DNA of 64,000 nucleotides from Nocardiopsis sinuspersici. GTDB lineage: Bacteria > Actinomycetota > Actinomycetes > Streptosporangiales > Streptosporangiaceae. The notes below the pieces were generated by a model. That model did not search any database. It worked only from the letters and a program-made list of their open reading frames with translations, and was not told where the DNA came from. This document shows, in pieces, positions 3,634-22,274 of this stretch. A program made the translations under genes and the position numbers. Location of the stretch: NCBI GenBank assembly GCA_008638415.1, contig VWVT01000008.1, forward strand, positions 279,930 through 343,929. Direction: 5' to 3'. How positions within the stretch are numbered: the first letter of the stretch is position 1; each line of letters opens with the position of its first letter.

Positions 3634-3646
3634 ACGCACCACGCTG

Positions 3647-3668
3647 AACCCGTACCCGCCTACGGGTT
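3647..3668. promoter_or_regulatory. 22-bp perfect dyad upstream of the decayed gene
   Basis: AACCCGTA-6-TACGGGTT, eight-base arms with no mismatch, 14 bp before the start of the decayed gene on the reverse strand. A dyad at a promoter is what MerR-family regulators use, and the broken gene belongs to mercury operons, but no regulator gene is nearby. It may be an orphan operator. Confidence 0.45.
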
Positions 3669-4469
3669 GCAAGTCCTGGACGCGAGGAAATCCCGACGAG
3701 AACACCGCAGGGGCATTCGGCGTCCGGGCCGCCGACGGAGATTCACCGCCTCCACTGCTCGCCTTTCCTCGGACTCGCGCCGTGTGCGCCCGGCCCGGTC
3801 GGCGGCCCGGCTGTCGCGCGACCGGCCTGTTCGAGCAGGTCGGCGGCGGTCCTGCGGCGACACCAGCCGCCCGGGCGTGCGATCCGGCGTTCCTCACCAG
3901 AGGCGCCGAGCGTGCCGGCGGGTCAGAGCCATCCCTTCGGTGAGGGGCGTAGCACCTGTGCACTTTCTGACCAGGCCAGTCCGGAATTTCCTTTCCGCGG
4001 TCGGGAAGGACGTGGAGGCGGCTCGCCGGGTTCCGGTGCCGACGCGCGGAAAGCCGTTCCGGCGCCGTTTCAATTCAGGTGGACGACGATCCCCGGGACC
4101 ACGGACCGAGCCCCTGAGGGGGTCCGCTCCACCGCGGCCCCGGCACGCACCCGGGGGCTTTGGCACACCGACGCTGGACCGTGCCGGGCCGCGGCCCGGC
4201 GGGGCGCGCTCCTCCTCGGTACCGGCCGAGGTACCGGCGAGCACACCGGCGTCCGGCCGCTTCGGCGAGGTCCCCGAAAGGCGCGGGTCCACGTTCGTCG
4301 GCGCGACCGCCGTGTACTCCCCCACCTCCGGGCCGACGGGCTGGTCGGCGACCATCTGGACGGCTGCCCGGCCAGACCGCCCCGGCCGCGCCGGGTGATC
4401 CCCGGCGCCCCTCCAAGGAGGGCCCTGGGCCGACGTTCCGTCGCCACAGGCCGGTGGAACCCATGCGAG

Positions 4470-4481
4470 TGAAACGTTCTT
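4470..4481. promoter_or_regulatory. LacI-type operator, distal copy
   Basis: TGAAACGTTCTT has the central CG and A/T-rich arms of LacI-family operators that control sugar genes. It lies 236 bp before the rhamnosidase start. A matching element lies 139 bp downstream. Confidence 0.4.
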
Positions 4482-4608
4482 ACTACATCGCGCCCCTCTC
4501 TGGTAGACCCGCACGCAACAAAATCCCTGTTCACAGGGATCCATCGAGTGAGGGACAAAGTTTTCCGCGCAACCATTGACCATCGGGAGCATCTGTTGGA
4601 AACTTCGC

Positions 4609-4620
4609 TGAAACGTTTTA
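4609..4620. promoter_or_regulatory. LacI-type operator, proximal copy
   Basis: TGAAACGTTTTA, nine matching bases with the distal copy (TGAAACGTT), 97 bp before the rhamnosidase ATG and just after a possible -35 element TTGACC at 4576. Two copies about 139 bp apart would allow looping by a tetrameric repressor. No LacI gene is present in the window. Confidence 0.45.
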
Positions 4621-4716
4621 AGGCCTGTTCTCAACCGGCTCCACGTGTGCGCGCACGACTTCCCCCGTCGTCCCCGGCGCCCTGCTCCAGCGAGCGGGCG
4701 CAGGAAGGAAACCCCC

Positions 4717-8107: not shown

Positions 8108-9151
8108 CTAGAACGCGTCCGGGTAGAGCTCCTGGGCGATCGTCTCCACCGCGTCGATGTTCCCCAGGGCGCCGGGGTACAGGTCGCTCCCGGGAACGGC
8201 GATGAGGAGTTCGTTCTCCACCGCCGGGACTTCGGGGAAGGTGCTGCGGAGGTACTCGCGTGTCCGCTCCTCGTGCTCCGGTCCGCTCACGCCGAACACG
8301 ATGGCCTCGGGGGCGCGGCTGACGATCTCCTCGGGGTTGATCTGTGCGGCGAAGAAGTCGGCGAACTCGGGCCCGTCGGGGTCGAAGACGTTGTCGCCGC
8401 CGGCGGTCCTGATGATGTCCGCCTCGATGCCTGCGCCGATGGCCGACAGCGAGTTGCCCTCGACGTAGACCTGCGCGACGGCGGGTGGCGGAGAGTCGCT
8501 GATCGCGGCCTCCACAGCGGCCAGTCGTTCCTCGGTGTCCTGTATGAGCTCTTCGGCCGCGTCGGGGACGCGCAGGATGGCACCGAGGTCCTCGATGTCC
8601 CTCAGCACGTCGGTGACCTCCGCGGTGTTGCGCCGGTCGGCGCAACCACCGGTCGCGACGTAGGCCCGGGCGCCGTTCTCGTCCAACTGCTCGATGCTGG
8701 CGAAGCCCTGTTCGGCCGTGAACTCGTACTCCGTGGGGGAGGCCACCAGGTCGGGGGCGACAGCGAGCAGGTCCTCGCGGGGCGGCGGAGCGTCCGCGCT
8801 GAGTACCGGGATGCCGGCGGCCTGCTCGGCGATGTCGTCCGGTAGCGCCGAGACCTCGGTCTGGGCCTGGCCGACGATGGAGTCCCCCACGCCGAGGCGG
8901 ATGAGCAGCTCGGTCTGCGAGGGCATCAGCCCGACGACCCTGCTGGGAGCGGTGTCGAAGGACAGATCCCGTCCGCAGTTCGTGACCGTCACGGCTTCCC
9001 CGGAGGCATCGGAGGCCTCCGGGTCGCTGGTGACGCCGGTACCGCATGCGGTCAGCACCAGCGGCGCCACGGCGAGTGCGGCCCAGACGGTCGATAGGCC
9101 GCGGGTACGGGAGCGGCGCCGAGACGTGGCCCGGAAGGCGTTGCGTGTCAT
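8108..9151 (-). CDS. FecB/BtuF-type metallophore-binding lipoprotein
   Basis: 347 residues. A basic N-terminus (RRRSRTRG), hydrophobic core and lipobox LTAC near residue 35 mark it as a lipoprotein on the outer face of the membrane. The mature protein starts with GRDLSFDTAPSRVVGL and TELLIRLGVGDSIVG, the first lobe of PeripBP_2 (class III) proteins that bind siderophores, haem or cobalamin; a later GNSLSAIGAGIEADIIRTAGGDNVF belongs to the second lobe. Its start overlaps the ATPase stop by ATGA, so it is the last gene of a five-gene operon beginning at 14116. Its ligand is likely the modified peptide made by the divergent operon; this is inferred from context. Confidence 0.9.
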   Translation of the reverse strand: MTRNAFRATSRRRSRTRGLSTVWAALAVAPLVLTACGTGVTSDPEASDASGEAVTVTNCGRDLSFDTAPSRVVGLMPSQTELLIRLGVGDSIVGQAQTEVSALPDDIAEQAAGIPVLSADAPPPREDLLAVAPDLVASPTEYEFTAEQGFASIEQLDENGARAYVATGGCADRRNTAEVTDVLRDIEDLGAILRVPDAAEELIQDTEERLAAVEAAISDSPPPAVAQVYVEGNSLSAIGAGIEADIIRTAGGDNVFDPDGPEFADFFAAQINPEEIVSRAPEAIVFGVSGPEHEERTREYLRSTFPEVPAVENELLIAVPGSDLYPGALGNIDAVETIAQELYPDAF

Positions 9152-9984
9152 GGGGTGGTTACTTCTTCCTCGGTCGGGGTGGGTGGGTTCGTGGGGCCGT
9201 GGCCGTTCGGCTTCGGCGGGCTGCAGGCGTCGAAGAGGAGGTGTCGCCGTCCGGAACGCGGATGGGCGACGGCCGTCGACTCGACGCCGAAGACCGAGCG
9301 GACCAGGTCGGTGTGCAGTACCTCGTCCGGGGTGCCGAGGGAGAGCAGGCTCCCCTCGGCCAGGACGCCGATGGCGTCGCAGGAGCGCGCGGCCAGGTTC
9401 AGGTCGTGCAGGGCGACCACCACGGTGCGTCCGGTGGCCCTGACCAGATCGAGGAGTTCGAGCTGATGGGCGATGTCGAGGTGGTTCGTGGGCTCGTCGA
9501 GGACGAGCACGGGTGTGTCCTGGGTGAGCGTGCGGGCGAAGAGCACGCGTTGGCGCTCGCCGCCCGAGAGGGCCGAGAACGGGCGGTTCTCCAGGTGCGC
9601 GGCGCCGACGCGGGCGAGGGCCTGCTGGGCGAAGGAGATGTCGTGGTCGGAATCGCGCCCGTACCCGCGCCCGTGCGGGATGCGCCCGAGCAGGACCAGG
9701 TCGAGGACGGGGATCTCGAATTCCTCGCTGTGCTCCTGTGCCATCACCGCCACGCGCCGGGCCATCTCCTTGCGGCCCAGCGAGGTGATGTCGGTGCCGT
9801 CGAAGCGCACACGGCCGGCTGAGGGGGCCGCGAGCCCCGACACGGCGCGCAGCAGTGTGGACTTGCCGCTCCCGTTGGGCCCGAGCAGCCCGAGCACGGT
9901 GCCCGAGGGCACCGAGACGCTCACGTCGGTGATGACGGGCCGCCCCCCGCGGTGGGCTCGGAGGTTCTCGACGTCGACTCTCAT
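9148..9984 (-). CDS. FecE/BtuD-type ABC importer ATPase
   Basis: 278 residues from the ATG at 9984, giving a 4-bp overlap with the permease stop. Walker A is GPNGSGKST, signature LSGGERQR, Walker B VLVLDEPTNHLD and switch histidine in ALHDLNLA, all intact. This set is typical of iron-siderophore and cobalamin importers. A tail of about 40 residues rich in Pro and His (ending after SPPKPNGHG) is longer than usual. It powers the permease encoded just upstream in the operon. Confidence 0.93.
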   Translation of the reverse strand: MRVDVENLRAHRGGRPVITDVSVSVPSGTVLGLLGPNGSGKSTLLRAVSGLAAPSAGRVRFDGTDITSLGRKEMARRVAVMAQEHSEEFEIPVLDLVLLGRIPHGRGYGRDSDHDISFAQQALARVGAAHLENRPFSALSGGERQRVLFARTLTQDTPVLVLDEPTNHLDIAHQLELLDLVRATGRTVVVALHDLNLAARSCDAIGVLAEGSLLSLGTPDEVLHTDLVRSVFGVESTAVAHPRSGRRHLLFDACSPPKPNGHGPTNPPTPTEEEVTTP

Positions 9985-11156
9985 CGGCCCACCCCCACGC
10001 TGTCGGCGCGGTCGCGTCGCAGCAGCCACAGGAAGAACGGTGCTCCGACCATCGCGGTGAGCACACCCAGTGGGATCTCCGACGGATCGGCCAGGGTACG
10101 GGCCAGGAAGTCACAGGTGGTGAGGAACACCGCTCCGCCGAGCAGGGCGACCGGGAGCATCCTGCGGTGGTCGGAACCGACGGTGATGCGCGCGATGTGG
10201 GGGATGATCAGCCCGACGAAGCCGATGCCTCCGGAGACCGCGACGACCGATCCGGTCAGCAGGGCCGCGGCGACGAGGGCGCCGCTGCGCAGCCGGTTGA
10301 CGTTGACGCCCAGGGACGCGGCCGCGTCGTCCCCGACGAGGAGCGCGTTGAGTGCCCGAGCGTGGAACGCGGCGTAGAGCCCCACGATGAGCAGCGCCGC
10401 CGAGGGCAGGGCGAGGTGGCCCATCGTGGCGGCGGAGACCGAGCCCAGGAGGAAGAACATGATGCTGAAGACGTTCTGCGCGTGGGTGGTGATGGTCAGG
10501 TAGCTGGTCACGGCGCTGAACAGGGCGCCCAGCGCGACGCCCGCGAGGATGAGGCGCTGGGGTGCGATGCGCCCGTTCTTGTGGGCCAGGGTGTAGACGG
10601 CCGCGGTGGCCGTGAGTGCGCCGAGGAAGGCCGCGCCCCCCACGCCGAGGGAGCTGGTCCCGACGCCCAGGACGATGAACGAGACCGCGCCGACTCCGGC
10701 GCCGGCGGAGACTCCGAGGATGTAGGGCTCGGCCAGGGAGTTGTGGACCACGGCCTGCATCAGCGCGCCGGCCAGGGCGAGCGCGGCACCGGCGGTCGCT
10801 GCCAGGAGCACGCGGGGCAGCCGGAACTGCCAGACGGCGTTGTCCTGCACCGTCGTCAGCGACCCGTCCGACATCCACGGCATCCCGGGCACGAGGTGGC
10901 CGACGATGACGCGCAGGGCCTCCGCCGGGGACACGTCGATCGTGCCGACGCTGGTGGACAGCACCACCACCGCCAGCAGTGTGAGGGCCAGGACCGGAAC
11001 GAGGATCCGGGCGGCGAGCACACCGCGCCTCCTGGTGTTTCCCGCCGGAGCGGCCGGAGCCGGGGCGCCGCCAGGGGGTGCTCCTCCGGGGCGCGTGTTG
11101 GCCAGAAGGCGTTGGAGGGAGGCCGACACGCGTCTCCCGTTGGTTGCTTGTGCCAT
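9981..11156 (-). CDS. FecCD-family metallophore permease
   Basis: 391 residues. An N-tail of about 40 residues rich in Pro, Gly and Ala precedes about ten hydrophobic segments. Family signatures include RLPRVLLAATAGAALALAGA, LAEPYILGVSAGAGVGA, LLGSV, and GGIGFVGLIIPHIAR, the cytoplasmic coupling loop that docks the ATPase. One polypeptide carries the whole FecCD domain, so the transporter is probably a homodimer. The gene starts 17 bp after the peptidase gene and overlaps the ATPase gene by 4 bp. Confidence 0.93.
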   Translation of the reverse strand: MAQATNGRRVSASLQRLLANTRPGGAPPGGAPAPAAPAGNTRRRGVLAARILVPVLALTLLAVVVLSTSVGTIDVSPAEALRVIVGHLVPGMPWMSDGSLTTVQDNAVWQFRLPRVLLAATAGAALALAGALMQAVVHNSLAEPYILGVSAGAGVGAVSFIVLGVGTSSLGVGGAAFLGALTATAAVYTLAHKNGRIAPQRLILAGVALGALFSAVTSYLTITTHAQNVFSIMFFLLGSVSAATMGHLALPSAALLIVGLYAAFHARALNALLVGDDAAASLGVNVNRLRSGALVAAALLTGSVVAVSGGIGFVGLIIPHIARITVGSDHRRMLPVALLGGAVFLTTCDFLARTLADPSEIPLGVLTAMVGAPFFLWLLRRDRADSVGVGR

Positions 11157-11173
11157 CTGTTGCGAAGACTCTC

Positions 11174-12910
11174 TTACGTCGTGGATGGAGCGGTCCGCGC
11201 GGACCCGGTGATCGTGGCGGCGAAGCCGAGGACGGTCGTCCCGAGGCGGTGCAGGCTGTCGAGGTGGTTGCCGCCGTGGCCCGTTTCCGGTGCGCGCCAT
11301 ACGGCGGCGCTGCCTCCGACACGGCGCAGCGCGTCGACGACCGCCAGAGTGTCGTCGGCGACGACCCGGGAGTCCTCCGCCAGCACGATGCCGAGGAAGC
11401 GGGGAGGAGCGGTGCCGGGGGTGAGTTCCCGAGCACGGTGCAGCGGTGAGATCCGGCGCAGGTGCTCGATCCCCCCCGAGGCCCCGAACTCGTCGGCCCA
11501 GCGCCGCCCGAGCGGGTGGGCGCCGAGGTTGAGCAGGTCGAGCGGCGCCGCGGTGCTGACGACACCGGCGCACAGGTCCGGCGATCCGAGGGCGCAACTG
11601 GTGGCCAGGACTCCGCCGTGGGAGGCGCCGGCCAGGACGAGCAGGTCGGGCCGGGTGAGCCCGGCCCCGACCAGGCCGCGTGCGGCGACGGCCAGGTCCT
11701 CGATGCCGCGGCCCTTGGCGAGGCCGCGCCCGGCCTGCCTCCAGGCGGAGCCGTGCTCGCCTCCTCCCCGGACCTGTGCGATGGCGTACCGGCCACCGTG
11801 CTCGGCCCACGCCGGCACGGTCGGTTCGAACACCGGCAGACTCGGTACACCGAAGCCGCCGTAGCAGGTGAGGATCAGCGGTGCGGGGCCCTTGGCGCCG
11901 GTCGGCGAGGTGACCACGACGGGTACGCGCGATCCGTCCTCGGCGGTGAAGGCGTACCGTTCGGTGCGTGTGGGGGCTTCCGGGCGGGCCGCCGCCGGAC
12001 GGTCGGACAGCAGCTCCTCGGCGGGTACGACCCGTGGGGGCAGGGCCGGGCCCTCGATGAGGACGTGGAAGCGGTCGGCGTCGGCGCTCACTCCGGTCGC
12101 GACAGCCGGAGCTCCCCGGTGGGTGACCTCCCGTTCGGCCGCGACCGAGCCCCGGACGAGCCGCACGATGACACCGCGGCCGGCGCGTACGCCGACGGCG
12201 ACGATGTCCTGGCCGCGGGCGGCGAACGAGGTGACCCGCAGGTCCGGGTCGTCCCAGCGCCACCTCGGGGCACCGCTGCCCGGATCGAGGCCCTGAAGGC
12301 GGGCGCCGTCGTCGACGACGACGTCCTCACCCGCGGGCAGGACGCGGACGATGGCGGCGAACTCGGCGAGCTCGGCGCCGGTGGCCCGGTCGATGAGGCG
12401 GCCGGGGCTGCCGGGGCGGCTCTCGGCGAGCAGTCCGCGCCGGCCTCCGGGGAAGAGTCTGAGCCGGGTGCCCGGCGGTACGGCCGAAGCCGTCGACCGC
12501 CCGGTTCGCGCGTCGAGGCGGACGAGGCTGTGGGACCGGCCGGCGACCAGTTCGACACCGGACGAGTCGTCTTCCCAGAGCATGGGGTCGTAACGGCAGC
12601 GGATCCGCGGATAGAGCCGCAGAGATCCGGTGGCGGTGTCGACCAGCCCCAGCGCGGCGTCCTCGTCCGCGCGTTCAGCCAGTTGGACGCAGATGCTGCG
12701 CCCGTCCGGGGAGGGGGCCATGCGCAGGATGTGCCCCTCGGGCTCGATCACCGGTGAGCCGGTGTCCGCCCGGTAGATCCCCTGGCGTCGTCGTCCGGGC
12801 GGGCGGGCGAGCGCGAACCCGTTCTCCGGCAGGCCCGGGCGTCCGTGCCGTTCCCACTTCGTGAGCGCGGTGTCGATGGCGGGGACGAGGGGAGGAGGGA
12901 AGTCGTGCAT
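11174..12910 (-). CDS. Prolyl-oligopeptidase-family serine peptidase (S9)
   Basis: 578 residues with no signal peptide, so cytoplasmic. The first 330 residues have repeated beta-propeller character (GRSICVQLAERADEDAALGLVDTATG and similar blades). The last 250 are an alpha/beta hydrolase with catalytic Ser430 in GASHGG, Asp513 in AEDSRV and His545 in ETGHGG, in the order and spacing of S9 enzymes. These cleave short peptides that can enter the propeller. It lies between a propeller-like protein and the importer permease in one operon, divergent from a precursor peptide. It may trim the precursor or break down re-imported product to free its metal. Shorter than classical POP (about 700 residues). 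Confidence 0.88.
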   Translation of the reverse strand: MHDFPPPLVPAIDTALTKWERHGRPGLPENGFALARPPGRRRQGIYRADTGSPVIEPEGHILRMAPSPDGRSICVQLAERADEDAALGLVDTATGSLRLYPRIRCRYDPMLWEDDSSGVELVAGRSHSLVRLDARTGRSTASAVPPGTRLRLFPGGRRGLLAESRPGSPGRLIDRATGAELAEFAAIVRVLPAGEDVVVDDGARLQGLDPGSGAPRWRWDDPDLRVTSFAARGQDIVAVGVRAGRGVIVRLVRGSVAAEREVTHRGAPAVATGVSADADRFHVLIEGPALPPRVVPAEELLSDRPAAARPEAPTRTERYAFTAEDGSRVPVVVTSPTGAKGPAPLILTCYGGFGVPSLPVFEPTVPAWAEHGGRYAIAQVRGGGEHGSAWRQAGRGLAKGRGIEDLAVAARGLVGAGLTRPDLLVLAGASHGGVLATSCALGSPDLCAGVVSTAAPLDLLNLGAHPLGRRWADEFGASGGIEHLRRISPLHRARELTPGTAPPRFLGIVLAEDSRVVADDTLAVVDALRRVGGSAAVWRAPETGHGGNHLDSLHRLGTTVLGFAATITGSARTAPSTT

Positions 12911-12913
12911 CGC

Positions 12914-14116
12914 TCACCGGCCGATGGTGTCGGCGGCGCCGCCGTGCCAGTACAGGTGCCCGCCCTCGTCGAGCGGGCTGGGCACGGTGACGGTGTCGAG
13001 TCCGCCGCCATGGAACAGGTGCAGTTGACCGTCGCCTCCCCTGGTCACCGCGACCGTCGTCCCAGCGGGGTCGACGGCCACGGAGCGCCGCTGTGCGGGT
13101 GAGCCGCCGACCGGGTCCCAGGGCAGGCGTCCGGGGACGGGCGGGCGCGACATCGGGGGGAGCGGGATCCTGTGCGGGACGCGCATCCGCGGCTCGGCCC
13201 GCTCGATGACGGTGAGCTCGTCCCCGTCGGGATGGATCGTGGCGACGGCGGCCCTGGTGCCGCCGAGCGCGAAGCGGAAGGCCAGTCCCCGGGGCAGTCC
13301 CAGGCAGCGCGTCCGGCCGGTGGACAGGTCGACGTCGACCAGGTGGTTCGTCCACTCGGTCCACGCCGTCGGGGAGGCGGGCCCGCCTCGGACCACGCCC
13401 ACCGCACGGCCCGTGGCCGGGTCCAGGCGCAGGTAGTAGGCGCGTCCGGGCACGGGCCAGGCGACGGCGCCGAGCATGCGCGGGACACCGCCGTCGATGA
13501 CGAAGCGCTCCAGTCCCCTGCCGGTCGCGGTCGCCGCGATGCCGGTTCGCTGGTCGACAACGTCGCCGTGTCCGTCGTCGGCGATCTCGCGGACGACCTC
13601 ACCGGTGATCCGGGGCACGTGCGAGGCGGCGTCGAGGCACCGGGAGAGGGGAAACGACTCGAGGGCTCCGGGCTCCCTGTGGCGCAGCACGACCACCGGT
13701 TCGCCGTCGGCCTGGTCGGGGACGATCATCGCCCCGGGCTCCCCGACCCGGGAGCGGAACCGTACCGACTCGCTCCGATCGAGGTCGACAAGGGTGACGA
13801 CGTCGCTCCACGCCTTCTCGTTCGCGCCCAGCCCGGTCGTCACCACCACGTAGCGGCCCGAGGCGTCGCAGGCGAGGTGCTCGCCGGGGATGGCCGCGGG
13901 GAAGCGCCGTTCCCCGCGGGCCCCCGAGACCACGAGCGCTCCGGAGCGGTCGTCGACGAAGGCCCATTCGGCCTGCCCCTCCCCCCTGCGGGGCAGCGTC
14001 AGGAACCCGGCGTGCTCGGCGAGGACGGCGTTGCCGAGCGGCCTCACCGTGCCGTCCGCGACGGCGTACGTGCGACCCCCGCGGTAGTCGGCGACGAGGA
14101 GCTTCTGGAAGTTCAT
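12914..14116 (-). CDS. Propeller-like cytoplasmic protein of the peptide operon
   Basis: 400 residues with no signal peptide. The sequence repeats a strand-turn pattern (LLVADYRGGRTYAVADGTVRPL; YLRLDPATGRAVGVVRGG; VVDQRTGIAATATG; VAVDPAGTTVAVTRGG), which suggests a beta-propeller, but no named family was recognised. It is the first gene of the reverse operon, ends 3 bp before the peptidase gene and could be the missing substrate-gating partner of that short S9 enzyme. The predicted -10 element lies only 7 bp before the ATG and no ribosome site is visible, so the transcript is probably leaderless. Confidence 0.7.
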   Translation of the reverse strand: MNFQKLLVADYRGGRTYAVADGTVRPLGNAVLAEHAGFLTLPRRGEGQAEWAFVDDRSGALVVSGARGERRFPAAIPGEHLACDASGRYVVVTTGLGANEKAWSDVVTLVDLDRSESVRFRSRVGEPGAMIVPDQADGEPVVVLRHREPGALESFPLSRCLDAASHVPRITGEVVREIADDGHGDVVDQRTGIAATATGRGLERFVIDGGVPRMLGAVAWPVPGRAYYLRLDPATGRAVGVVRGGPASPTAWTEWTNHLVDVDLSTGRTRCLGLPRGLAFRFALGGTRAAVATIHPDGDELTVIERAEPRMRVPHRIPLPPMSRPPVPGRLPWDPVGGSPAQRRSVAVDPAGTTVAVTRGGDGQLHLFHGGGLDTVTVPSPLDEGGHLYWHGGAADTIGR

Positions 14117-14122
14117 GGGGCA

Positions 14123-14158
14123 AAGCTATTGGAAACGGTAATCATTTTCAAGTAAAGT
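14123..14158. promoter_or_regulatory. Overlapping divergent promoters with a Zur/Fur-like dyad
   Basis: Rightward: -35 TTGGAA (14129-14134), 18-bp gap, -10 TAAAGT (14153-14158), serving the precursor gene. Leftward: -35 TTGAAA (complement of 14146-14151), 17-bp gap, -10 TAGCTT (complement of 14123-14128), serving the propeller/peptidase/importer operon. A dyad TTGGAAA-9-TTTTCAA (14129-14151) covers both -35 elements, and its right part GTAATCATTTTCA resembles actinobacterial Zur boxes more than iron boxes. A repressor bound here would silence both operons at once. Metal identity is inferred. Confidence 0.55.
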
Positions 14159-14181
14159 GACCGTCGTTCGCCCCGACGAAC

Positions 14182-14208
14182 ACGTATCGGCACAGATGAC
14201 CGATACGT
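14182..14208 (+). other. Hairpin in the precursor 5' leader
   Basis: ACGTATCGG and CCGATACGT form nine perfect pairs around a 9-base loop, about 17 bases after the predicted transcription start and 8 bases before the ribosome site. It may stabilise the abundant precursor mRNA, regulate it, or be a second operator. Confidence 0.5.
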
Positions 14209-14232
14209 CATGGCTTGGAAAGGAAATCCCTC

Positions 14233-14415
14233 ATGGACAACCAGATCGTCGCCGAGATCGAGGAGCCCGAGCAGCTCGCGCACCTGTCGGCCTCGCACTC
14301 CAACGCGCTCGTCGAGAACCCCTTCGACGTCGTGGCCGAGATCGAGGAGCCCGAGCAGCTCGCCCACCTGTCGGCCTCGCACTCCAACGCGCTCGTCGAG
14401 AACCCCTTCGACTAG
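14233..14415 (+). CDS. Tandem-repeat RiPP precursor peptide
   Basis: 60 residues from the ATG at 14233, chosen for the GGAAAGGA ribosome site at 14217-14224; an in-frame TTG at 14215 would add six residues and lies on that site. After MDNQ the peptide is two copies of a 28-residue unit. Each has an acidic half (EIEEPEQL) then AHLSASHSNALVENPFD. There is no Cys or Thr, so the azoline-forming machinery downstream can act only on Ser19/21/23 and Ser47/49/51, each set flanked by histidines. It matches the plan of a leader-core precursor with two cores. Position before a YcaO operon is the main evidence; the family was not recognised by name. Confidence 0.85.
   Translation: MDNQIVAEIEEPEQLAHLSASHSNALVENPFDVVAEIEEPEQLAHLSASHSNALVENPFD
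14245..14412 (+). repeat. 84-bp tandem duplication inside the precursor gene
   Basis: Units 14245-14328 and 14329-14412 are the same at 81 of 84 positions. One difference changes Ile to Val and two are silent. The near identity at third positions points to recent duplication or ongoing homogenisation. Confidence 0.95.
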
Positions 14416-14448
14416 TTCTCCCCTCCGGGACGTAGTCAGTGAGAACCA

Positions 14449-14481
14449 CCCGGTCGGGCAGCCCCGCGCTGCCCGACCGGG
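14449..14481 (+). terminator. Attenuator-like hairpin between precursor and modification genes
   Basis: Thirteen-bp perfect arms around a 7-base loop, followed by GCCCTTTG. It lies 34 bp after the precursor stop and 18 bp before the next start. In RiPP operons such a partial terminator keeps precursor mRNA in excess over the enzymes. Confidence 0.75.
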
Positions 14482-14498
14482 CCCTTTGAGAGGTCGCC

Positions 14499-15389
14499 TT
14501 GCTCCCACAACCATCCATCGCCCGTGTGCCGGGGACCGGCGCGCACGTCATCGTCGACAGCGGAGGCACCGGTGTCGTACGCACCTCCTCAGGGCGCTTC
14601 CTCCGTCTCGTGTCCCCACCGCCCGGTCTCCTGGACGCCCTGGCCGGCGCTTCGGACGGTGACGGGGAGGCCTCCGCGTACGCCGAGGCGCTTCGGGCGA
14701 GGATGTCCGCGCTCGAGGAGGAGGACGCGCAGCGCCGTTGGCCGGGTCCTCGGCGCGAGGTCGCCCTGGTCGGCGGGGGCCCGCTCATCGACGCGGTGGC
14801 CGACGCCCTGGCCGGTTGGGGCGCGGCCGTCACCCGCCACACCGACGGCGGGGCCCTGCTCTCCACGATGGACGGAGCGGCCGACGGCGGTCGCCGGGGC
14901 GGCGGCACGGCCGTCCCCCGAGGAGGGGGCACCCGGCCATGGGGACTGGTGGTCGCGTACGCGGACTCCCCCGTGGAGCGCGTCGGCTGGGACCGGCTCG
15001 ACACGCTGCCGAGCCAGGGCGTGGCCTGGCTGCGCGCCTACCGCGAGGGCGAGAACTGCTTCGTCGATCCGATCTGCCTCGACGGGGACGACCCCGGAGC
15101 CGAGCAGGTGTACCGGCGACGCCTGGCGGCGAGCTTCACTCCCCGGGAACTCGACACCTGGCGGCGCGCGGCCGTGGCCGCCGCGCCCGCCTCGGCCGCC
15201 GCACACACGCTGGTGGTGAGCCGGCTCCTCACCCTGGCCCTCGCCTGGGCACAGGAGTCTGACGCGTTGGAGGGCTACCGCACCACGCTGTGGAAACTGG
15301 TCACCGCCACCGGCACGGTCAGCGAGCACCCGGTACTGGCCTACGACCCGCCGTCCTCCGTCGACCGAGGGGCGCGTCGGCGGGTATGA
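14499..15389 (+). CDS. TOMM cyclodehydratase partner protein (ThiF-like, degenerate)
   Basis: 296 residues from a TTG at 14499 supported by GAGAGGT just upstream. The middle begins with REVALVGGGPLIDAVADALAGWGAAVTRH, a Rossmann start like the E1/ThiF-like proteins that bind leader peptides for YcaO cyclodehydratases. The ATP-binding arginine motif and zinc CxxC pairs of true E1 enzymes are absent. The C-terminal part includes GEGENCFVDPICLDGDDPGAEQVYRRRL-like sequence with the pattern of bacteriocin cyclodehydratase domains. Expected role: hold the precursor leader and activate the YcaO protein. It overlaps the hydrolase gene by ATGA. Confidence 0.75.
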   Translation: MLPQPSIARVPGTGAHVIVDSGGTGVVRTSSGRFLRLVSPPPGLLDALAGASDGDGEASAYAEALRARMSALEEEDAQRRWPGPRREVALVGGGPLIDAVADALAGWGAAVTRHTDGGALLSTMDGAADGGRRGGGTAVPRGGGTRPWGLVVAYADSPVERVGWDRLDTLPSQGVAWLRAYREGENCFVDPICLDGDDPGAEQVYRRRLAASFTPRELDTWRRAAVAAAPASAAAHTLVVSRLLTLALAWAQESDALEGYRTTLWKLVTATGTVSEHPVLAYDPPSSVDRGARRRV

Positions 15390-16384
15390 CGGAGGAGCTC
15401 GGACGCGCACACCTGTGCCGGGGCCGCGACGGCACGGTCCTGCGCGGGCGGATGTGGGAATGCGGGAGCCCGGAAGGCATCGTGGTGATCCGCACCCCCT
15501 ACGACGCCGACCAGCACGTGGCGACGGCACGCTCGTGGAACGCCCGCGGCTACCACTGCCTCGTCCAGGACGTGCGCGGACGGTACAGGTCAGCGGGGGC
15601 CTGGTCCCCCTACACGCACGAGGAGGAGGACGGCGGCCAGGTGCTCGCCCACCTGCTCGACGAGTACGGAGGGCTGCCGCTGGTCCTCTTCGGCGCCTCG
15701 TACGCCGCTCACACCGCACTCGAGGCGGCCCGGGCCGTGACGCGCGACGGCGCGTGCCCGGTCGCGGCGATCATCGCCCTCGTCCCCGCCCTCGGGCTGG
15801 CCGAGACCGCGTGGGACCACGAGGGCTCCCCGCAGATCCTGCACCGGATCGGATGGTGGCACGAACACGGACGCCACCGGCGCTCCCAACGCCCGCTGTC
15901 CGCGGCCGAACTCGACCGACGCGTCGCGCAGGCGCGAAGGCAGGGCGTGGTCGAGGCCGCCGAGAACTGGGGCTGGTCGCCATCGGCGTCGACCGGCTGG
16001 CGGAGGCTGTGGAGCGCGGACCGCGTGGACCCGGCATCACGCTACGGCCACGTCGACGTGCCGCTACTGGTGGTCAGCGGCGATGACGACTTCTTCCACG
16101 ACGACGCCCGGCGGCTCGCACGCGAGTGGAGAGCCCCGAGCCACTTCGCCAGCGGCCCCTGGGGGCACCGGCTGGTCGGCGGCGTCGCCGACCAGGCCCT
16201 GCGGGCCCGCATCTCGGCCGCGGGCGGACTGACCCACATCATCGACCCGTGGCTGGCGGCCCGGGGACTGCCCGGCTCCCCGGCGGAGTGGACCGGGATC
16301 CTCACGGCCGCGTCCACGCCCCACACCCGGTCGACCCTCGATCCCGCGTCAGAGGCATGGCGCCACGAAAGGACCTCACCTTGA
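15386..16384 (+). CDS. CocE/X-Pro-peptidase-like alpha/beta hydrolase
   Basis: 332 residues, no signal peptide. It opens like S15/CocE hydrolases: RGRDGTVLRGRMWE, VVIRTPYDADQH, GYHCLVQDVRGRYRSAGAWSPYTHEEEDG. The nucleophile elbow is GASYAAH (serine in place), the acid lies in VVSGDDDFFHDD, and a histidine follows in GPWGHRLVGG. S15 members cleave after Xaa-Pro or hydrolyse esters. The precursor repeat ends in an NPFD motif, so an Xaa-Pro cut near the core end is possible but unproven. Start and stop are both in 4-bp overlaps with its neighbours, so it is a committed part of the operon. Confidence 0.8.
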   Translation: MTEELGRAHLCRGRDGTVLRGRMWECGSPEGIVVIRTPYDADQHVATARSWNARGYHCLVQDVRGRYRSAGAWSPYTHEEEDGGQVLAHLLDEYGGLPLVLFGASYAAHTALEAARAVTRDGACPVAAIIALVPALGLAETAWDHEGSPQILHRIGWWHEHGRHRRSQRPLSAAELDRRVAQARRQGVVEAAENWGWSPSASTGWRRLWSADRVDPASRYGHVDVPLLVVSGDDDFFHDDARRLAREWRAPSHFASGPWGHRLVGGVADQALRARISAAGGLTHIIDPWLAARGLPGSPAEWTGILTAASTPHTRSTLDPASEAWRHERTSP

Positions 16385-17811
16385 CCCCCACCACGACCGG
16401 GCGGCCCCGCCCGGGGACCGCCGGGACCGCTACGGCCCGGGCCGACCACCCCCTGCCCGTGGACTCGCTGGTCGACCCCGAATGCGGAGTCATCCGCTCC
16501 GTGCGGGCCGTGACGCACCCCGCCGGCGCTCCCACCTCCTACATGGGGCTGACCGCGGCCGTCGCCGATGCCCGGCAGCTCGGCGAGTGGCCGGCCGACC
16601 GCGTCTCGTTGGGCACGTCCTTCGACGACGCCGGGCAGGCCAGGATCGCCGCGATCGCCGAGGGGGTCGAGCGCTACTGCGGGAACTGGCTGCCCGCCGA
16701 CCTTCCTCCCGACGAACTGCGCACCGGGTCCCGCGCGGAACTGCTGGCCGCGGGCCGCCGCCCGGTCGGCCTGGAGGACCTGCCCCGGTTCGCTCCGTGG
16801 CAGTACGCCCGGGCCGGGTTCCCCTACCAGCCCCTCACCGAGGACACCCCCGCCCTCTGGGCGCGCTGCGAGGAGCGCGACGGCGCCGAGGTCTGGATGC
16901 CGGCCTCGCTGGTCTACCTCAACTGGCGGCAGTCGCGCTTTCGCCACCTGCCGCGCGTGCACCACCTGAACTACGCCGGAATCGCCACCGGGCAGGGGGC
17001 CGACGACGCGAGGGACCGAGGAGTCCTGGAGATCATCGAACGCGACGCCCTCGAACTGTGGTGGCACCTGGACGGACCCACCTTCGGGATCGACCCCGCC
17101 AGCGTTCCCGGACTGGCCGACGACCTGGGCGGCAGCTCCCTGGACGTGTTCCTGACGGCCATGCCCTCGGAGTTCGCCCCCGCCGTGGCCGCACTCGTGC
17201 ACGACAGGGAACGCGGCCTGTACGCCGCGGGGTTCTCCGCGGCGCTCGATCCCGTGAGGGCCGCCCGCAAGGCCGTCCTCGAAGCCGTCCACACATGGGT
17301 CTACACCCAGGGCTGCACCGACGCCGACGGGTGGGTCTTCCGTGCCGTCGAACAGGGGTTGATGGCCCGCGGCCTCCACCTCGACTTCCGCGCCGACGCC
17401 GCCTACCTCGACGCCGCCGGCGCCCAGTGCGAGCACGTCATCGACCTGGGCGCGCACGTCCAGATCTGGCTCGACCCCCGGGTCCACGGCCAGGCCCGGC
17501 GCTTCACGGCACCGGCTCTGGGGCTCCGGCCGGTCACCGAGGTGCCGGCCGTGTCGATGGACGAGGTCCACCGGCGGCTGGCCGACCGCGGACACCGCGT
17601 CCTCACCCGCGACCTGACGACGAGCGATGTCCGTCGCACCTCGCTGCGGGTGGTGCGGAGCTTCGTCACGGGGCTCGTCCCGAACGCCCCCGCGGCTTTC
17701 GCCTATCTCGGTATGCCCCGCTTCGAGCACGCGGCCCTCGAACGAGGGTGGCGCACCTCCTGGGACGGGAGCCCCGCGGGCCTCACCCTCGTCCCGCCCC
17801 CGCACATGTGA
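16381..17811 (+). CDS. YcaO-domain cyclodehydratase
   Basis: 476 residues from a TTG at 16381, supported by GAAAGGA 8 bases upstream and by overlap with the hydrolase stop; an ATG at 16357 would add eight residues. ATP-site signatures of YcaO are present: SLGTSFDDAGQARIAAIAEGVERYC near residues 75-100, NYAGIATGQGADDARDRGVLEIIERDALELWW near 195-225, and AARKAVLEAVHTW. Azoline-forming YcaO proteins end in a proline-rich tail; here the end is LVPPPHM, a reduced form. It should activate backbone amides with ATP to cyclise Ser side chains of the precursor to oxazolines. Confidence 0.92.
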   Translation: MTPTTTGRPRPGTAGTATARADHPLPVDSLVDPECGVIRSVRAVTHPAGAPTSYMGLTAAVADARQLGEWPADRVSLGTSFDDAGQARIAAIAEGVERYCGNWLPADLPPDELRTGSRAELLAAGRRPVGLEDLPRFAPWQYARAGFPYQPLTEDTPALWARCEERDGAEVWMPASLVYLNWRQSRFRHLPRVHHLNYAGIATGQGADDARDRGVLEIIERDALELWWHLDGPTFGIDPASVPGLADDLGGSSLDVFLTAMPSEFAPAVAALVHDRERGLYAAGFSAALDPVRAARKAVLEAVHTWVYTQGCTDADGWVFRAVEQGLMARGLHLDFRADAAYLDAAGAQCEHVIDLGAHVQIWLDPRVHGQARRFTAPALGLRPVTEVPAVSMDEVHRRLADRGHRVLTRDLTTSDVRRTSLRVVRSFVTGLVPNAPAAFAYLGMPRFEHAALERGWRTSWDGSPAGLTLVPPPHM

Positions 17812-17821
17812 GGCCGCACCC

Positions 17822-18916
17822 ATGCCCCTTCCCCTCCCATCGACCCCATCTCCTTACGGTGCGAGGCGCGGTGCGGCGGAGCCCTCGCGCCTGCCGCCCG
17901 CACTCGCACGCGCCTTCTCGGCCGAGGCACCGGGACCGCCCCTTCCGCCCGGACCGCGCGCCAGTCCCTGGCACCGTGCCGGAGCCGACCCGGTGGCGGT
18001 ACCGGCCCGCGAACGCGCCCTGCTCGACGGCCTGTGGCGCGGCGCGGGGCACCACCGCCTGGCCGACGGGACGGTGACCCGTGTCCGCAGGCGTCCGGTG
18101 CCCTCCGCGGGCGCGGCCTACCCCGTGCGCACCCACCTGGTCGTCGGTGCGGACGGCCCCCTGGACGCGGGGCGGTACGCCTTCGACCTGGAGGACGGCA
18201 CCCTCCACCGACGCGACGAGGCCCGCGAACGGGAGGCGGGCTGGCACGTCCCGGGTACGGGCACCGACGTGACGGGGACCCACCTGGTCCTGAGCGTGCA
18301 ACCCGGTCGCAGCTTCGGCCGGTACCGTCACCGGGCCTGGCCGCTGTGGATCGCGGACACCGCCTACGCCCTGGCCGCGGTGGAGTTCCTGTGCGCTCCG
18401 GCCCCCTCCGCGGTACGGCTGGGCCCCGGACCGTGGCTGCGCGACCTGCTCGGCGTCCCGCGCGCGGCCGAGCACGGCCGGTGGCTCGCGCGCGGGCTCG
18501 CGCCGGAGATCCCGCTGGCCACCGTCGAACTGCCCGGCTCCTGGTCGGTCGTACCCGGGCGCGGGGACGCCCTGGCCGCGAGGCGCTCCCCGGCGACCGG
18601 CGAGTTCGAGGCCGCGGCGCGCGCCCACGACCCGCGGGCCGTTGACGTCGCGAGGGCCTCCGGGCAGGCCTGGGTCCTCGGGGCCCACCGGTTGGAGACG
18701 TGGTCCGTCGCGGTGGACACGCCCGCCGCCGAGTTCGCCCAGGCCCTGTGGCGGGCCCATCGGGCCGCGGCCGGCCTGTGCTACGCGGGCGCGCTGTCCG
18801 GGCGATGGCGCTGCCGTCCGATATCGGGATTCACCGCTTCGCGCGACCGCTGGACCGTCCACGCCCTGGCGATGCTCCCCGGCGGACACGCCCTCGACAA
18901 GGAGTCAGCCGCATGA
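17822..18916 (+). CDS. SagB-type FMN oxidase (azoline dehydrogenase)
   Basis: 364 residues. The signature RRPVPSAGAAYPVRTHLVV is the FMN-binding start of SagB/ThcOx nitroreductase-like enzymes, followed by RYAFDLEDGTLH. RHRAWPLWIADTAYALAAVEFLC is the dimer/flavin helix. In TOMM pathways this enzyme oxidises azolines to azoles. It begins 10 bp after the YcaO gene and overlaps the first exporter gene by ATGA. With a Cys-free precursor the product would be oxazole. Confidence 0.87.
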   Translation: MPLPLPSTPSPYGARRGAAEPSRLPPALARAFSAEAPGPPLPPGPRASPWHRAGADPVAVPARERALLDGLWRGAGHHRLADGTVTRVRRRPVPSAGAAYPVRTHLVVGADGPLDAGRYAFDLEDGTLHRRDEAREREAGWHVPGTGTDVTGTHLVLSVQPGRSFGRYRHRAWPLWIADTAYALAAVEFLCAPAPSAVRLGPGPWLRDLLGVPRAAEHGRWLARGLAPEIPLATVELPGSWSVVPGRGDALAARRSPATGEFEAAARAHDPRAVDVARASGQAWVLGAHRLETWSVAVDTPAAEFAQALWRAHRAAAGLCYAGALSGRWRCRPISGFTASRDRWTVHALAMLPGGHALDKESAA

Positions 18917-20589
18917 TGATCGTTCCCCTGCTGTGGCGGGAGGCGGCCCGGTTTCCCGCGGCTCTGGCACGGAGCGCCGCCCTGCTGGTCCTCGTCTTCC
19001 TCACCCACGTCGGGCAGGCCGTGGCGGTCGCCTGGTCGATGTCGGCGGTGCTGCGCGGCCAGGCCCAGGACGTACTCCTCGCGCTGTCGCTGATCCTCGG
19101 GATCGCGCTGCTGCGCCTGGCGCTCTCCCTGGCCCAGGCGTCGGCCGCCGCGCATCTGGGCGGCCGGGTCAGGCAGGCGGTCCGCCGCCGCGCGATGGAG
19201 GCCGCGCTCGTGCCCGAGCGGCTGCACGACACGGCGGCCCGAGACGGTTCGATGCGTGCCAGCCTCGGTGACGGTGTCGACGGCATCGACGCCTACGTCT
19301 CCAAGTACGTTCCCGCGATCGTGCAACTACTCCTCACCTGCCCGATCGTCGTGACCGCCCTGTTCTCGCTCTCACCGTGGGCGGGCCTGTGCGTCGCCGC
19401 CGGGGTCGTGTTCGCGCTGTTGGGGCCCATGGCGTGGAAGCGGACGACGGCCCGGCGCGGACTCGACCACTGGGACAGCTACGAGGCGCTCAGCGCCGAC
19501 CTGCTCGAATCCCTGCGCGGCATGGCCACCCTGCGCACACTCGGCGACGTGTCCGGCACCCGCAGGCGGCTGGACCACCGCTCGGAGGCGCTGCGCAGGG
19601 CCACCGAGCGCGTGATGCGCGTCTCCCTGGGCGAGACGTCCGTCACCGACGCGGCCGTCCAGGGGGGAGCGGTCGCCGCCGCCGCCGTCGCCGTCGTCCA
19701 CGCGGTCACCGGGCAGGCCCCCGCCCTCGAGGTCTACCTGATCCTCCTGCTCTCCTCCGAGGCGTTCCGTCCCATCCGGGACCTCTCGCGGCACTGGCAC
19801 GCCGGATTCCTCGGCCTCACCGCGGTCCCCGGCCTCCAGCGGCTCGGGGCCTTCACCGAGCGGCGCGCCACCGCCCCGGACCACGACGCCCCAGAACACA
19901 CCGCGTCCGGCCACGGGGACGGCCGGACGGCCCGGGGCAGGACGGCGGACGCGCTGCGGGTGACCGGTCTGAGTTTCCGCTACCCCGGCGCGCACGTGGA
20001 CGTCATCCACGACCTCGACCTGACGGCCCGACGGGGCTCCCTCACCGCGATCGTCGGGGCCTCCGGGGCCGGAAAGTCCACCCTCTTCGACCTACTCCTC
20101 GGCTTCCTCACCCCGCGCACCGGAAGCATCGACCTCGACGGGCGGCCGCTCCGCGCCTTCGACATCGCCGTGGTCTCCCAGCGGCCGGTGCTCTTCGCCG
20201 GGACCGTCCGCGACAACCTCGCGGTCACCGGGACCACCACGGAGGCGGACCTCGTCGAGGCCTGCCGCGACGCGGGAGTCCTCAACGAGATCCAGCGCTT
20301 CCCGCGCGGCTTCGACACCGAGGTCACCGAAGCCGGCACCAGCCTGTCGGGCGGACAGCGCCAACGCCTCGCCCTGGCCCGCGCACTGCTGGCACGGCGC
20401 CCCGTCCTGCTGGTGGACGAGCCGACGAGCGCGTTGGACGCCGACCGCTCCGCGGACGTCGTCCGAACTCTGCACCGTGTCGCCCGCGACCGCGTCGTCC
20501 TCATGATCAGTCACCGCTCCGAGACCCTCACCGGGGTTCCCGACGTGTTCAGCCTCGATTCCGGACACCTGTACAGGAGCACCTCGTGA
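18913..20589 (+). CDS. ABC exporter half, CydD-like
   Basis: 558 residues. Six hydrophobic segments in the first 300 residues form an exporter membrane domain, then an ATPase domain: Walker A VGASGAGKST, signature LSGGQRQRLALARAL, Walker B PVLLVDEPTSALD, switch histidine in MISHRS. A linker of about 35 residues (TAPDHDAPEHTASGHGDGR) is rich in His and Asp. With the next gene it should form a heterodimer, most likely exporting the mature peptide. The CydDC-like look comes from domain style; no cytochrome bd genes are near. Confidence 0.88.
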   Translation: MMIVPLLWREAARFPAALARSAALLVLVFLTHVGQAVAVAWSMSAVLRGQAQDVLLALSLILGIALLRLALSLAQASAAAHLGGRVRQAVRRRAMEAALVPERLHDTAARDGSMRASLGDGVDGIDAYVSKYVPAIVQLLLTCPIVVTALFSLSPWAGLCVAAGVVFALLGPMAWKRTTARRGLDHWDSYEALSADLLESLRGMATLRTLGDVSGTRRRLDHRSEALRRATERVMRVSLGETSVTDAAVQGGAVAAAAVAVVHAVTGQAPALEVYLILLLSSEAFRPIRDLSRHWHAGFLGLTAVPGLQRLGAFTERRATAPDHDAPEHTASGHGDGRTARGRTADALRVTGLSFRYPGAHVDVIHDLDLTARRGSLTAIVGASGAGKSTLFDLLLGFLTPRTGSIDLDGRPLRAFDIAVVSQRPVLFAGTVRDNLAVTGTTTEADLVEACRDAGVLNEIQRFPRGFDTEVTEAGTSLSGGQRQRLALARALLARRPVLLVDEPTSALDADRSADVVRTLHRVARDRVVLMISHRSETLTGVPDVFSLDSGHLYRSTS

Positions 20590-22274
20590 ACACCCTCTCC
20601 GCGTTCCGGGCCTTTCGCGCACTGCTGCCCGTCCTGCGCCCCGAATGGCGGGGGATGGCCTGGATCTACCTGCTCGGCACCATGAGCGCGCTCGGCCTGG
20701 CCGGCCTGACCGTCCTCACGGCATGGGCGGTCGGCCACGCCGTCGTGGAGCGCACGCCGCCCGGGCCCCTCTGGTGGGCCCTGGTCCTCGGACTCGTGCT
20801 GCTGCGCGTGCTCCTGACCTGGCGGGAGATGGACGTCTCCCATGCCCTGGCCTACCGCGTGCTGGCGCGGCTGCGGATGGCGCTGTTCGACGCCTACGCG
20901 CGCAGCGTTCCCGGTCGGCGCCGCGAGCACTCCGGACGCGCGGCGGCGGTCGCGATGGACGACATCGAAAAGCTCGAGTTCTTCTACGCCCACACGGTCG
21001 CCCAGCTCGGCGCCTCGCTCACCCTGTTCACCGCCTCACTCGTGACCGCGTCCCTGCTGCTGCCCGAGGCCGCGCTCGTCATGCTCCTGGGCGCCGCCGT
21101 CGTGGCGAGCAGCGCACTGTACTGGGCGCGGGCCGCCCGGCGGCTGGGCGAGCGGGAACAGCAGGAGCGGTCGGACCTGTCCGAGCACATCGTGGACGCG
21201 CTGGGTGCCCTGCGCGAGGTACTCGCCTACGGACTCGCCCCTCGCATCATCGCCGAGACCAGCGCCGCCACCGCACGCGCCGCCACGGTCGCGCAACGGC
21301 GCGAACTGCTGTCGCACCTGGTCACCGCCCTGCGGGAACTCGTCCTCACCGCCGTGGTCATCGGCGTCATCGCCACCAGCGCCACCGCCGCGGGCGTGCT
21401 GTCGGCGGACGTCCCGGTACGGCTGGCCCCCGCGGAACTGCCCGCGCTGGTCGCCCTGGCCCTGGTCGGCATCGCCGCGATCGTGGACGCCACCGACACC
21501 CTCACCCGGCTGCATCCGCTCGTCTCCGGAGCCGAACGCGTCGCCGCCGGAATCAACCGCCCCCCGGTCGTCGCCGTCCCCCGAGCTCCGCGGCCGCTGC
21601 CCGCCGGACCCCTCGGCCTCCGCTTCCGGGACGTGTCCTTCTCCTACGAAGGCCGACGGCCAACGCTCACGTCCTGGTCCGCCGGACTCGCCCCCGGCGA
21701 GCACGTCGGGCTGGTCGGCCCCTCCGGTTCGGGCAAGAGCACCGTGATCGCCCTCGCGGCCCGCCTCTGGGACCCTTCGGCGGGCACCGTCGAGCTCGTC
21801 ACCGCGGACGGCGGGGGCGTCCCCGTCGCCGATCTGGACGAGGCGGCACTGCGGGAGGCCGTCGCCCTGGTCGACCAGGACGCGACACTCTTCCACGGCA
21901 CCGTGCGCGACAACCTGCTGCGCGGCTGCGGACCACGGTCCGACGGCGACCTGAACGCCCTGCTCGAACGCGTCGAAGCCGCCGCCTGGATCGGTCTTGA
22001 CGACGAACTCGGAGAGGGCGGTGTGCGGCTGTCCGGCGGGCAGAGAGCACGCCTCTGCCTGGCCCGCGCCCTCGCACGCCGGCCGCGTGTCCTCCTCGTG
22101 GACGAGGTCACCGCCAGCCTCGACCCGGCCACCGAACGACTGGTGTCCGACGTCATCGCCCAGTTCCACGGCACCGTTCTCATCGCGTCCCACCGGGCCG
22201 AGACCCTCGCACGCCTCGAACGCGTCGTCGACGTGGCCGCGGCCCCGCACGCCGTACGGAGACCAGGTGGCTGA
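20586..22274 (+). CDS. ABC exporter half, CydC-like
   Basis: 562 residues from a GTG overlapping the previous stop by GTGA. Six hydrophobic segments, then Walker A VGPSGSGKST, signature LSGGQRARLCLARAL, Walker B RVLLVDEVTASLD and switch histidine in IASHRA. All catalytic residues are present in both halves, in contrast to the transporter at 57347-60945. It is the last gene of the peptide operon, whose seven genes follow with overlaps or gaps no larger than 83 bp. Confidence 0.88.
   Translation: MNTLSAFRAFRALLPVLRPEWRGMAWIYLLGTMSALGLAGLTVLTAWAVGHAVVERTPPGPLWWALVLGLVLLRVLLTWREMDVSHALAYRVLARLRMALFDAYARSVPGRRREHSGRAAAVAMDDIEKLEFFYAHTVAQLGASLTLFTASLVTASLLLPEAALVMLLGAAVVASSALYWARAARRLGEREQQERSDLSEHIVDALGALREVLAYGLAPRIIAETSAATARAATVAQRRELLSHLVTALRELVLTAVVIGVIATSATAAGVLSADVPVRLAPAELPALVALALVGIAAIVDATDTLTRLHPLVSGAERVAAGINRPPVVAVPRAPRPLPAGPLGLRFRDVSFSYEGRRPTLTSWSAGLAPGEHVGLVGPSGSGKSTVIALAARLWDPSAGTVELVTADGGGVPVADLDEAALREAVALVDQDATLFHGTVRDNLLRGCGPRSDGDLNALLERVEAAAWIGLDDELGEGGVRLSGGQRARLCLARALARRPRVLLVDEVTASLDPATERLVSDVIAQFHGTVLIASHRAETLARLERVVDVAAAPHAVRRPGG

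Follow-up and report, generated by a model that had tools for sequence, protein, structure and literature searches.

The stretch analysed here, a 64,000-nucleotide piece of a Nocardiopsis sinuspersici contig (VWVT01000008.1) and hereafter the window, sits in a 6.15-Mb home genome and carries a streptamidine-type (ami) gene cluster in which peptide biosynthesis genes and a Fec-type importer face each other across a predicted binding site for the zinc repressor Zur. Two compact operons diverge from a 116-bp gap, one on the minus strand (8108-14116) and one on the plus strand (14233-22274), with 4-bp overlaps at six gene junctions and remaining intra-operon gaps of 3-17 bp, except for 83 bp 3' of the precursor gene. 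Start codons were chosen by the analyst, and in a separate search a crude home-made gene caller served solely for the choice of frame. Gene calls and family searches confirmed the two compact divergent operons and most of the kinds of genes described in the first-pass annotation, which, from the letters alone, had proposed a ribosomal metallophore that is made, exported, re-imported and opened by the products of this locus. The features are as follows.

8108..9151, minus strand: substrate-binding lipoprotein (Peripla_BP_2; Pfam PF01497, 2.3e-21)
9148..9984, minus strand: importer ATPase (Pfam PF00005, 3e-32)
9981..11156, minus strand: FecCD-type permease (Pfam PF01032, 3.6e-95)
11174..12910, minus strand: S9-family peptidase (Pfam PF00326, 2.1e-26)
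12914..14116, minus strand: propeller-like protein, co-conserved with the cluster (present in 69/72 loci of at least 18 kb)
14127..14153, no strand assigned: two overlapping Zur-type boxes, 21-mers at 14127 and 14133 (25.0 and 18.6 bits with a matrix trained on rpmG promoters)
14233..14415, plus strand: amiA, precursor of 60 amino acids (NCBIfam NF040714, streptamidine, 7.1e-36)
14449..14481, plus strand: 14-bp RNA hairpin just 3' of amiA (fold of 14413-14500)
14499..15389, plus strand: amiB, ThiF/E1-like precursor-binding partner of YcaO, TTG start (homologue matches to TIGR03882)
15386..16384, plus strand: amiC, CocE/S15 alpha/beta hydrolase (Pfam PF02129, 5.3e-17; TIGR00976 above cut-off)
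16381..17811, plus strand: amiD, YcaO cyclodehydratase (Pfam PF02624, 1.3e-38)
17822..18916, plus strand: amiE, SagB-like dehydrogenase (weak match to TIGR03605, 7e-5, under cut-off)
18913..20589, plus strand: amiT1, exporter-fold ATP-binding cassette (ABC) half-transporter (CydD model, 329.5 bits against a cut-off of 435)
20586..22274, plus strand: amiT2, exporter-fold ABC half-transporter (CydC model, 244.3 bits against a cut-off of 329)

The precursor AmiA matches NF040714, the model of the streptamidine family of ribosomally synthesized and post-translationally modified peptides (RiPPs), at 121.8 bits against a cut-off of 40, in two stretches. It contains two 28-residue repeats, each with the core HLSASH and the follower SNALVENPFD, and the core pattern H-x-S-[AS]-[ST]-H, with both histidines fixed, holds in 76/76 precursors. 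The ami gene order B-C-D-E followed by T1-T2 is present, amiB and amiE being assigned by weak or homologue-level matches, and a Fec-type importer adjoins the biosynthesis genes. Judged by sequence, the cluster is a member of the published streptamidine family, in a Nocardiopsis version. Across 396 genomes of the phylum, NF040714 gave three matches, the home genome included; NF040715 gave none there and its controls gave none either, which leaves that search uninformative on motif-B relatives.

Russell et al. 2021 (PMC8442711) describe the streptamidine cluster of Streptomyces albidoflavus J1074 as amiF1-F4 followed by amiA, B, C, D, E, T1 and T2, the major layout of a family found in over 230 species, with streptamidine itself being the N-terminal amidine of HLSATH. 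AmiB, C, D, E and F1-F4 were required there and deletion of amiF1-F4 abolished production, whereas deletion of T1/T2 merely lowered the amount; Fec-type importers were already recognized as a feature of the family, and a role in metal import was guessed (PMC8442711). The window shares with the J1074 cluster the precursor family, the amiA-B-C-D-E-T1-T2 order and the neighbouring Fec-type importer, and differs from it in the core (HLSASH twice rather than HLSATH), in having one permease gene, in holding an S9 peptidase gene within the importer operon and in its single shared divergent promoter. By analogy with HLSATH, we infer an N-terminal six-membered amidine as the product of HLSASH. The earlier expectation of a Ser-derived oxazole is not upheld, since the characterized relative carries an amidine without an azole, and an azole product is discarded as the default. 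A new RiPP class is likewise ruled out by the precursor match, and the claim that no such peptide with an importer half had been described gives way to the 2021 publication.

The ami gap contains TATTGGAAACGGTAATCATTTTCAAGTAAAG, a Fur-family box. The Zur-type boxes start at a distance of 10 bp from the minus-strand operon's start codon and take up the spacer of what may be the amiA promoter, TTGGAA (14129-14134)-18-TAAAGT (14153-14158), whose hexamers were read directly; a sigma-70 consensus scan found no promoter at amiA. This site has the highest matrix score of the window; a weak match of 14.7 bits was also seen at window position 38839. Searched at up to one mismatch, the pattern TGAWAAYNRTTWTCA occurs at three sites in the 6.1-Mb home genome (reversed control, 0), namely before rpmG-rpmE2, before znuA and close to an apparent aroE, the last perhaps by chance. 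The first of these is a canonical Zur target (L065; G000:C26:30956-31167), with a perfect box before an L33 gene without CxxC (rpmG) and then an L31 gene, both confirmed by Pfam. At two mismatches the count rises to 26, as opposed to 5 for the control, and the ami gap holds two overlapping ones; the sole other such pair, at C12:57938, lies ~2 kb from a ZnuA gene. No site at up to two mismatches was found near the other six strong FecCD loci of the home genome, and none lies within 1.5 kb of its two other YcaO genes (C8:184415 and C8:4523; maxima of 2.9 and 7.6 bits). One of the two FUR-family genes of the home genome, C2:356781, adjoins an ABC-3 (ZnuB family) permease gene with a 2-mismatch box ~1 kb before, and from this context we call it a putative Zur. 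The home genome has three ZnuA-type genes (C5:157250, C6:81556 and C12:54788); Zur-type boxes occur at the C5 gene and in the C12 region (57938), and the fetched stretch around the C6 gene showed none.

A 21-bp Zur matrix was trained solely on 23 boxed promoters of rpmG (L33 without CxxC) from ami-bearing genomes, a box being present in 23 of 25 rpmG loci. Applied to 28 ami loci and the window, all from the same order, it placed a strong site upstream of amiA in 29/29; the ami gap ranked first in 25 of these and never below third in the rest, with scores of 16.9-39.3 bits against a background in which 99.99% of 591,209 positions fell below 7.3 bits. A further set of named loci comprises the best 80 of 208 confirmed AmiD relatives, so that the statements made from it cover this branch and not motif-B clusters; J1074 itself lies outside the 80, and four of them (L131, L191, L203 and L204) end on the contig before amiA. 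In each of the 76 named loci whose sequence extends to amiA, the matrix finds a site of 14 bits or more located 57-93 bp ahead of the gene (range 14.9-32.9 bits), and these include three Streptomyces loci with the HLSATH core (L174, L189 and L197; 30.9-32.3 bits). The two counts overlap in genomes and are not additive. Scores of at least 14 bits were reached at 169 of 1.6 million positions, 84 of them outside amiA promoters, often where a propeller or importer gene begins. The reversed sequence (1.6 Mb) gave 3 such positions, and of 7600 mononucleotide-shuffled upstream regions 22 reached that score. By record title, the boxed loci span 16 genera: Nocardiopsis, Marinactinospora, Streptomonospora, Prauserella, Saccharomonospora, Jiangella, Brachybacterium, Microbacterium, Leucobacter, Rhodococcoides, Galactobacter, Austwickia, Paenarthrobacter, Cryobacterium, Nocardioides and Streptomyces. 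One 3.5-Mb genome (G483) has three amiA-like copies (C1:9259, C5:7758 and C5:68941), two of which are boxed at 15.1 and 17.7 bits.

On this evidence, control of the ami cluster by Zur through the predicted site is very probable. No published link between the streptamidine family and Zur was found in a partial literature search by title and abstract opening, and in a whole-text word search of the main text of PMC8442711 the words Zur, peptidase and siderophore are absent. The Zur-type site conserved at amiA promoters is thus what is new here, the family and its Fec-type importers being known already. Streptamidine is a widespread actinobacterial RiPP for which its discoverers suspected metals and found nothing in the work they describe (PMC8442711); the conserved site points to a condition (zinc starvation), a likely metal and a regulator, which makes the question of function testable.

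In 72/72 loci of at least 18 kb, amiD has a FecCD gene no more than ~10 kb away, against a background of seven strong FecCD loci in the whole 6.1-Mb home genome. Where parts of the cluster have moved, they carry predicted Zur sites of their own. Streptomyces-type loci have the propeller gene away from amiA, beyond the importer, and a Zur site is present at 38/38 propeller starts, one of them (L159, Galactobacter) sharing the amiA promoter; importers at the far end (six loci and L191) have their own box in 7/7. L056 and L057 have, in place of the usual importer (at about 2500-5700), a FecCD importer of a more distant kind, which carries a strong Zur box of its own. Importers resembling that of L056 and L057 also occur, with strong boxes and without ami genes, in L227 and L228. 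The distant-subtype locus L037 (8113-9381 and 14878-18862) has a major facilitator superfamily (MFS) exporter diverging from amiA and apparently no T1/T2, with a Peripla_BP_2/FecCD/ATPase set downstream under a 23-bit Zur site. The distant locus L062 shows no FecCD gene in its first 19.9 kb and two in the next 20 kb, its importer lying 8-14 kb downstream with a 29.3-bit box upstream. No locus of the window layout with biosynthesis and no importer was seen, L043 being cut by its contig; L048 lacks a FecCD gene within its 10.3-kb contig, which ends early.

Because FecCD is co-conserved and the moved parts each carry their own Zur box, the view that the two operons belong together is strongly supported at the level of sequence. 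The first-pass annotation had taken them for one system and had named two observations that would make them mere neighbours, YcaO operons regularly lacking the importer and a shared promoter responding to no metal; the former was not encountered in any of the 72 loci, and the shared promoter bears a Zur-type site. Its proposed joint conservation of precursor, YcaO, FecCD and S9 genes holds for FecCD and fails for S9, which, among loci of 18 kb or more, was found in 33/33 from outside Streptomyces and, in the sequence fetched, in none of the 39 from Streptomyces.

A lipoprotein of at least 73% identity was found in 12 genomes out of 40 from the window's genus, and five of those 12 are without a working biosynthesis set. 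Three of the five (G089, G112 and G099) gave no precursor match and the other two (G124 and G116) gave precursor remnants under cut-off. In all five the importer genes align free of stops and the Zur box is retained (23.1-32.9 bits); T1 and T2 can be aligned over their full length in four, T1 of G116 being in two pieces, while propeller and S9 are gone or fragmented, with differing break points. By a rough method, the ratio of nonsynonymous to synonymous substitution (dN/dS) of the retained genes resembles that in complete loci. In a tree of five transporter proteins from 20 loci, the non-producers occupy three or more positions, two of which adjoin complete loci (supports: L224 with L041, 1.00; L064 with L044, 0.53; these two with L225, 1.00; L226 with L063, 1.00). 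The tree suggests at least three independent losses of biosynthesis, a count that assumes the complete cluster to be ancestral and never regained. Loss of biosynthesis with retention of uptake is a 'cheater' pattern, and since no reverse case was seen, it is as expected of a shared extracellular good such as a metallophore.

The same pattern indicates that S9 and propeller go with making the peptide and T1/T2 with using it. The peptidase had been assigned the opening of the re-imported peptide; its absence from the fetched Streptomyces loci and its loss together with biosynthesis where the importer stays speak against this, and it is rejected as the metal-release step. The reading of T1/T2 as a plain exporter is likewise weakened by their retention in non-producers.

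Taken as a whole, including carriage of zinc, the reading of the streptamidine-type cluster as a Zur-repressed zinc-acquisition system is the one we favour, by a modest degree of belief. It is drawn from the match between the amiA box and the box found at zinc-free ribosomal protein genes and znuA. When zinc is plentiful, zinc-loaded Zur would sit on the inter-operon box, within the amiA promoter spacer, and block both promoters. Under zinc starvation, AmiB and AmiD with AmiE would modify each H-L-S-A-S-H core of AmiA, and AmiC would free the N-terminus of the modified peptide. The short His-flanked peptide would then be secreted, bind zinc via its two histidines and perhaps the amidine or a group made by AmiE, and re-enter, zinc-loaded, through the lipoprotein-FecCD-ATPase importer, while T1/T2 may recycle apo-peptide or assist import. 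Zur control, the union of the operons and the retention of the transporters are the strongly supported parts, all at the sequence level; the amidine product, secretion, zinc binding and the direction of T1/T2 are inferred.

Zur-controlled metallophore clusters are known from PMC6103462, in which coelibactin, ethylenediamine disuccinate (EDDS) and pseudopaline likewise have their biosynthesis under a zinc repressor. Should the zinc-acquisition reading be confirmed, the ami product would stand beside coelibactin and pseudopaline as their ribosomal equivalent, and the cheating of actinobacteria on metallophores would have left a natural record in the non-producers. Coelibactin, EDDS and pseudopaline are not known to be ribosomal peptides. 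Methanobactin is a ribosomal peptide that collects copper and is then taken back up; the ami system would share the ribosomal metal-collecting peptide and its re-uptake, and would differ in metal, enzymes and uptake route. YbtPQ and IrtAB are importers with an exporter fold, and T1/T2 share their fold class and that of CydDC, the family scores of T1 and T2 (CydD and CydC) being below cut-off.

Several observations weigh against zinc carriage, which we nonetheless consider likely. Of the earlier proposal that zinc is the bound metal, the regulatory site is what was borne out: in the relative, binding was tested and not seen, as described in PMC8442711. There, by liquid chromatography-mass spectrometry (LC-MS), purified streptamidine was not seen to bind any of the metals Fe, Co, Cu, Mg, Mn, Ni and Zn, the chrome azurol S (CAS) assay was negative, and under metal starvation an amiD mutant did not differ from the wild type. 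A hexapeptide with two histidines and an amidine is, in our judgement, a weak zinc ligand, and position 2 of the core is variable (L, D, A, H, E, N). The presence of T1/T2 in non-producers fits a dedicated exporter poorly and leaves the exporter uncertain. The Zur site at amiA is itself a predicted one, two of the 25 rpmG loci (L090 and L091) have no box, and one of the three amiA copies in G483 (L233) has none either (maximum 1.7 bits). The published null results may, as a matter of argument and not of data, reflect cultures that were perhaps not zinc-starved, a phenotype masked by znu, or a compound that is perhaps a shunt product. An extended version, held tentatively and with rather less confidence, is that of a YcaO-modified ribosomal zincophore found across many genera of actinobacteria, its synthesis and uptake repressed by zinc and 'cheaters' arising recurrently, for which isolated streptamidine would be a shunt or breakdown product of a larger or oxidized ligand; such a ligand would account for the need of AmiE.

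The absence of metal binding and of a metal phenotype in streptamidine, within what PMC8442711 reports, could also mean that a Zur-controlled peptide does some other job in zinc starvation, as an antagonist, signal or envelope factor, its importer serving self-uptake or sensing rather than zinc delivery. Peptide turnover would suit the S9 and CocE hydrolases equally to metal release. This we regard as unlikely: the published assays recorded no antibacterial or antifungal activity for streptamidine (PMC8442711), the core is near-invariant over 16 genera except at position 2, unlike most toxins, and both importer and T1/T2 persist where biosynthesis is lost, a trace that could equally come from immunity by uptake. 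A metallophore whose target is not zinc but cobalt, nickel, copper or a cobalamin-like ligand, induced by zinc shortage as the cell replaces zinc, is quite improbable, for the box is that of zinc-free ribosomal proteins and znuA; the nearest importer models, those for F420-0, cobalamin, haem and iron-siderophores, would suit it, every one of them below cut-off. That the operons are merely neighbours with a promoter region in common by chance appears extremely improbable. The separate propeller gene of Streptomyces, past the importer, and the lack of a FecCD gene in the first 19.9 kb of L062 speak for it, and are outweighed by FecCD within ~10 kb in 72/72 loci, by the Zur boxes retained on the moved parts (38/38 propeller starts, 7/7 far importers and the L062 importer) and by the need for amiF1-F4 for production in S. 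albidoflavus (PMC8442711).

For the favoured zinc reading, the identity of the regulator also matters. The 7-1-7 boxes of the Fur family look alike, and the home genome has two FUR-family genes; the box might thus be read by Fur, Nur or Mur, with the cluster answering another signal. The matrix was built exclusively from Zur-type rpmG genes, and the FUR gene C2:356781 stands beside a ZnuB-family permease gene with a box of its own ahead of it, so that we hold this very unlikely. Iron control by IdeR is rejected, with no close IdeR-type box at the ami promoter: among 109 sources the best matches had 4 mismatches, in two sources and away from the ami promoter in both, and the rest had 6 or more.

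Within the gene set itself, the labels lipoprotein, ATPase, permease, S9, CocE and YcaO stood in Pfam; the propeller label is that of the first-pass annotation, with nothing convincing in Pfam, NCBIfam or the PDB (best PDB profile E value 0.12). The importer operon has a single permease gene, not two. AmiB alone had no match in Pfam/NCBIfam searches, TIGR03882 was matched at E <= 0.1 by 15 of 29 aligned AmiB homologues (best 8.6e-6), and PDB profile searches with AmiB gave weak matches (best E 0.003; TruD at E 0.72). AmiC is presumed to be the leader-removing peptidase. The C-terminal PPP motif of AmiD is present in 10/10 aligned sequences, and its closest named relatives, among the best 80 of 208, are from Nocardiopsis, with 93% to N. 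quinghaiensis. For AmiT1 the top PDB scores went to eukaryotic ABCB-type proteins, and chain B of 6p6i, which we take to be YbtQ, aligns over 18-553; for AmiT2, CydC structures align over 11-548. A search for a T-run terminator at the hairpin after amiA found none; the stretch 14413-14500 folds at -42.4 kcal/mol (z -3.17), and the hairpin, lying between amiA and the enzyme genes, is possibly an attenuator or stabilizer. Elsewhere in the window, an IdeR/DtxR-like box with 4 mismatches at 53571 may mark an iron-controlled gene.

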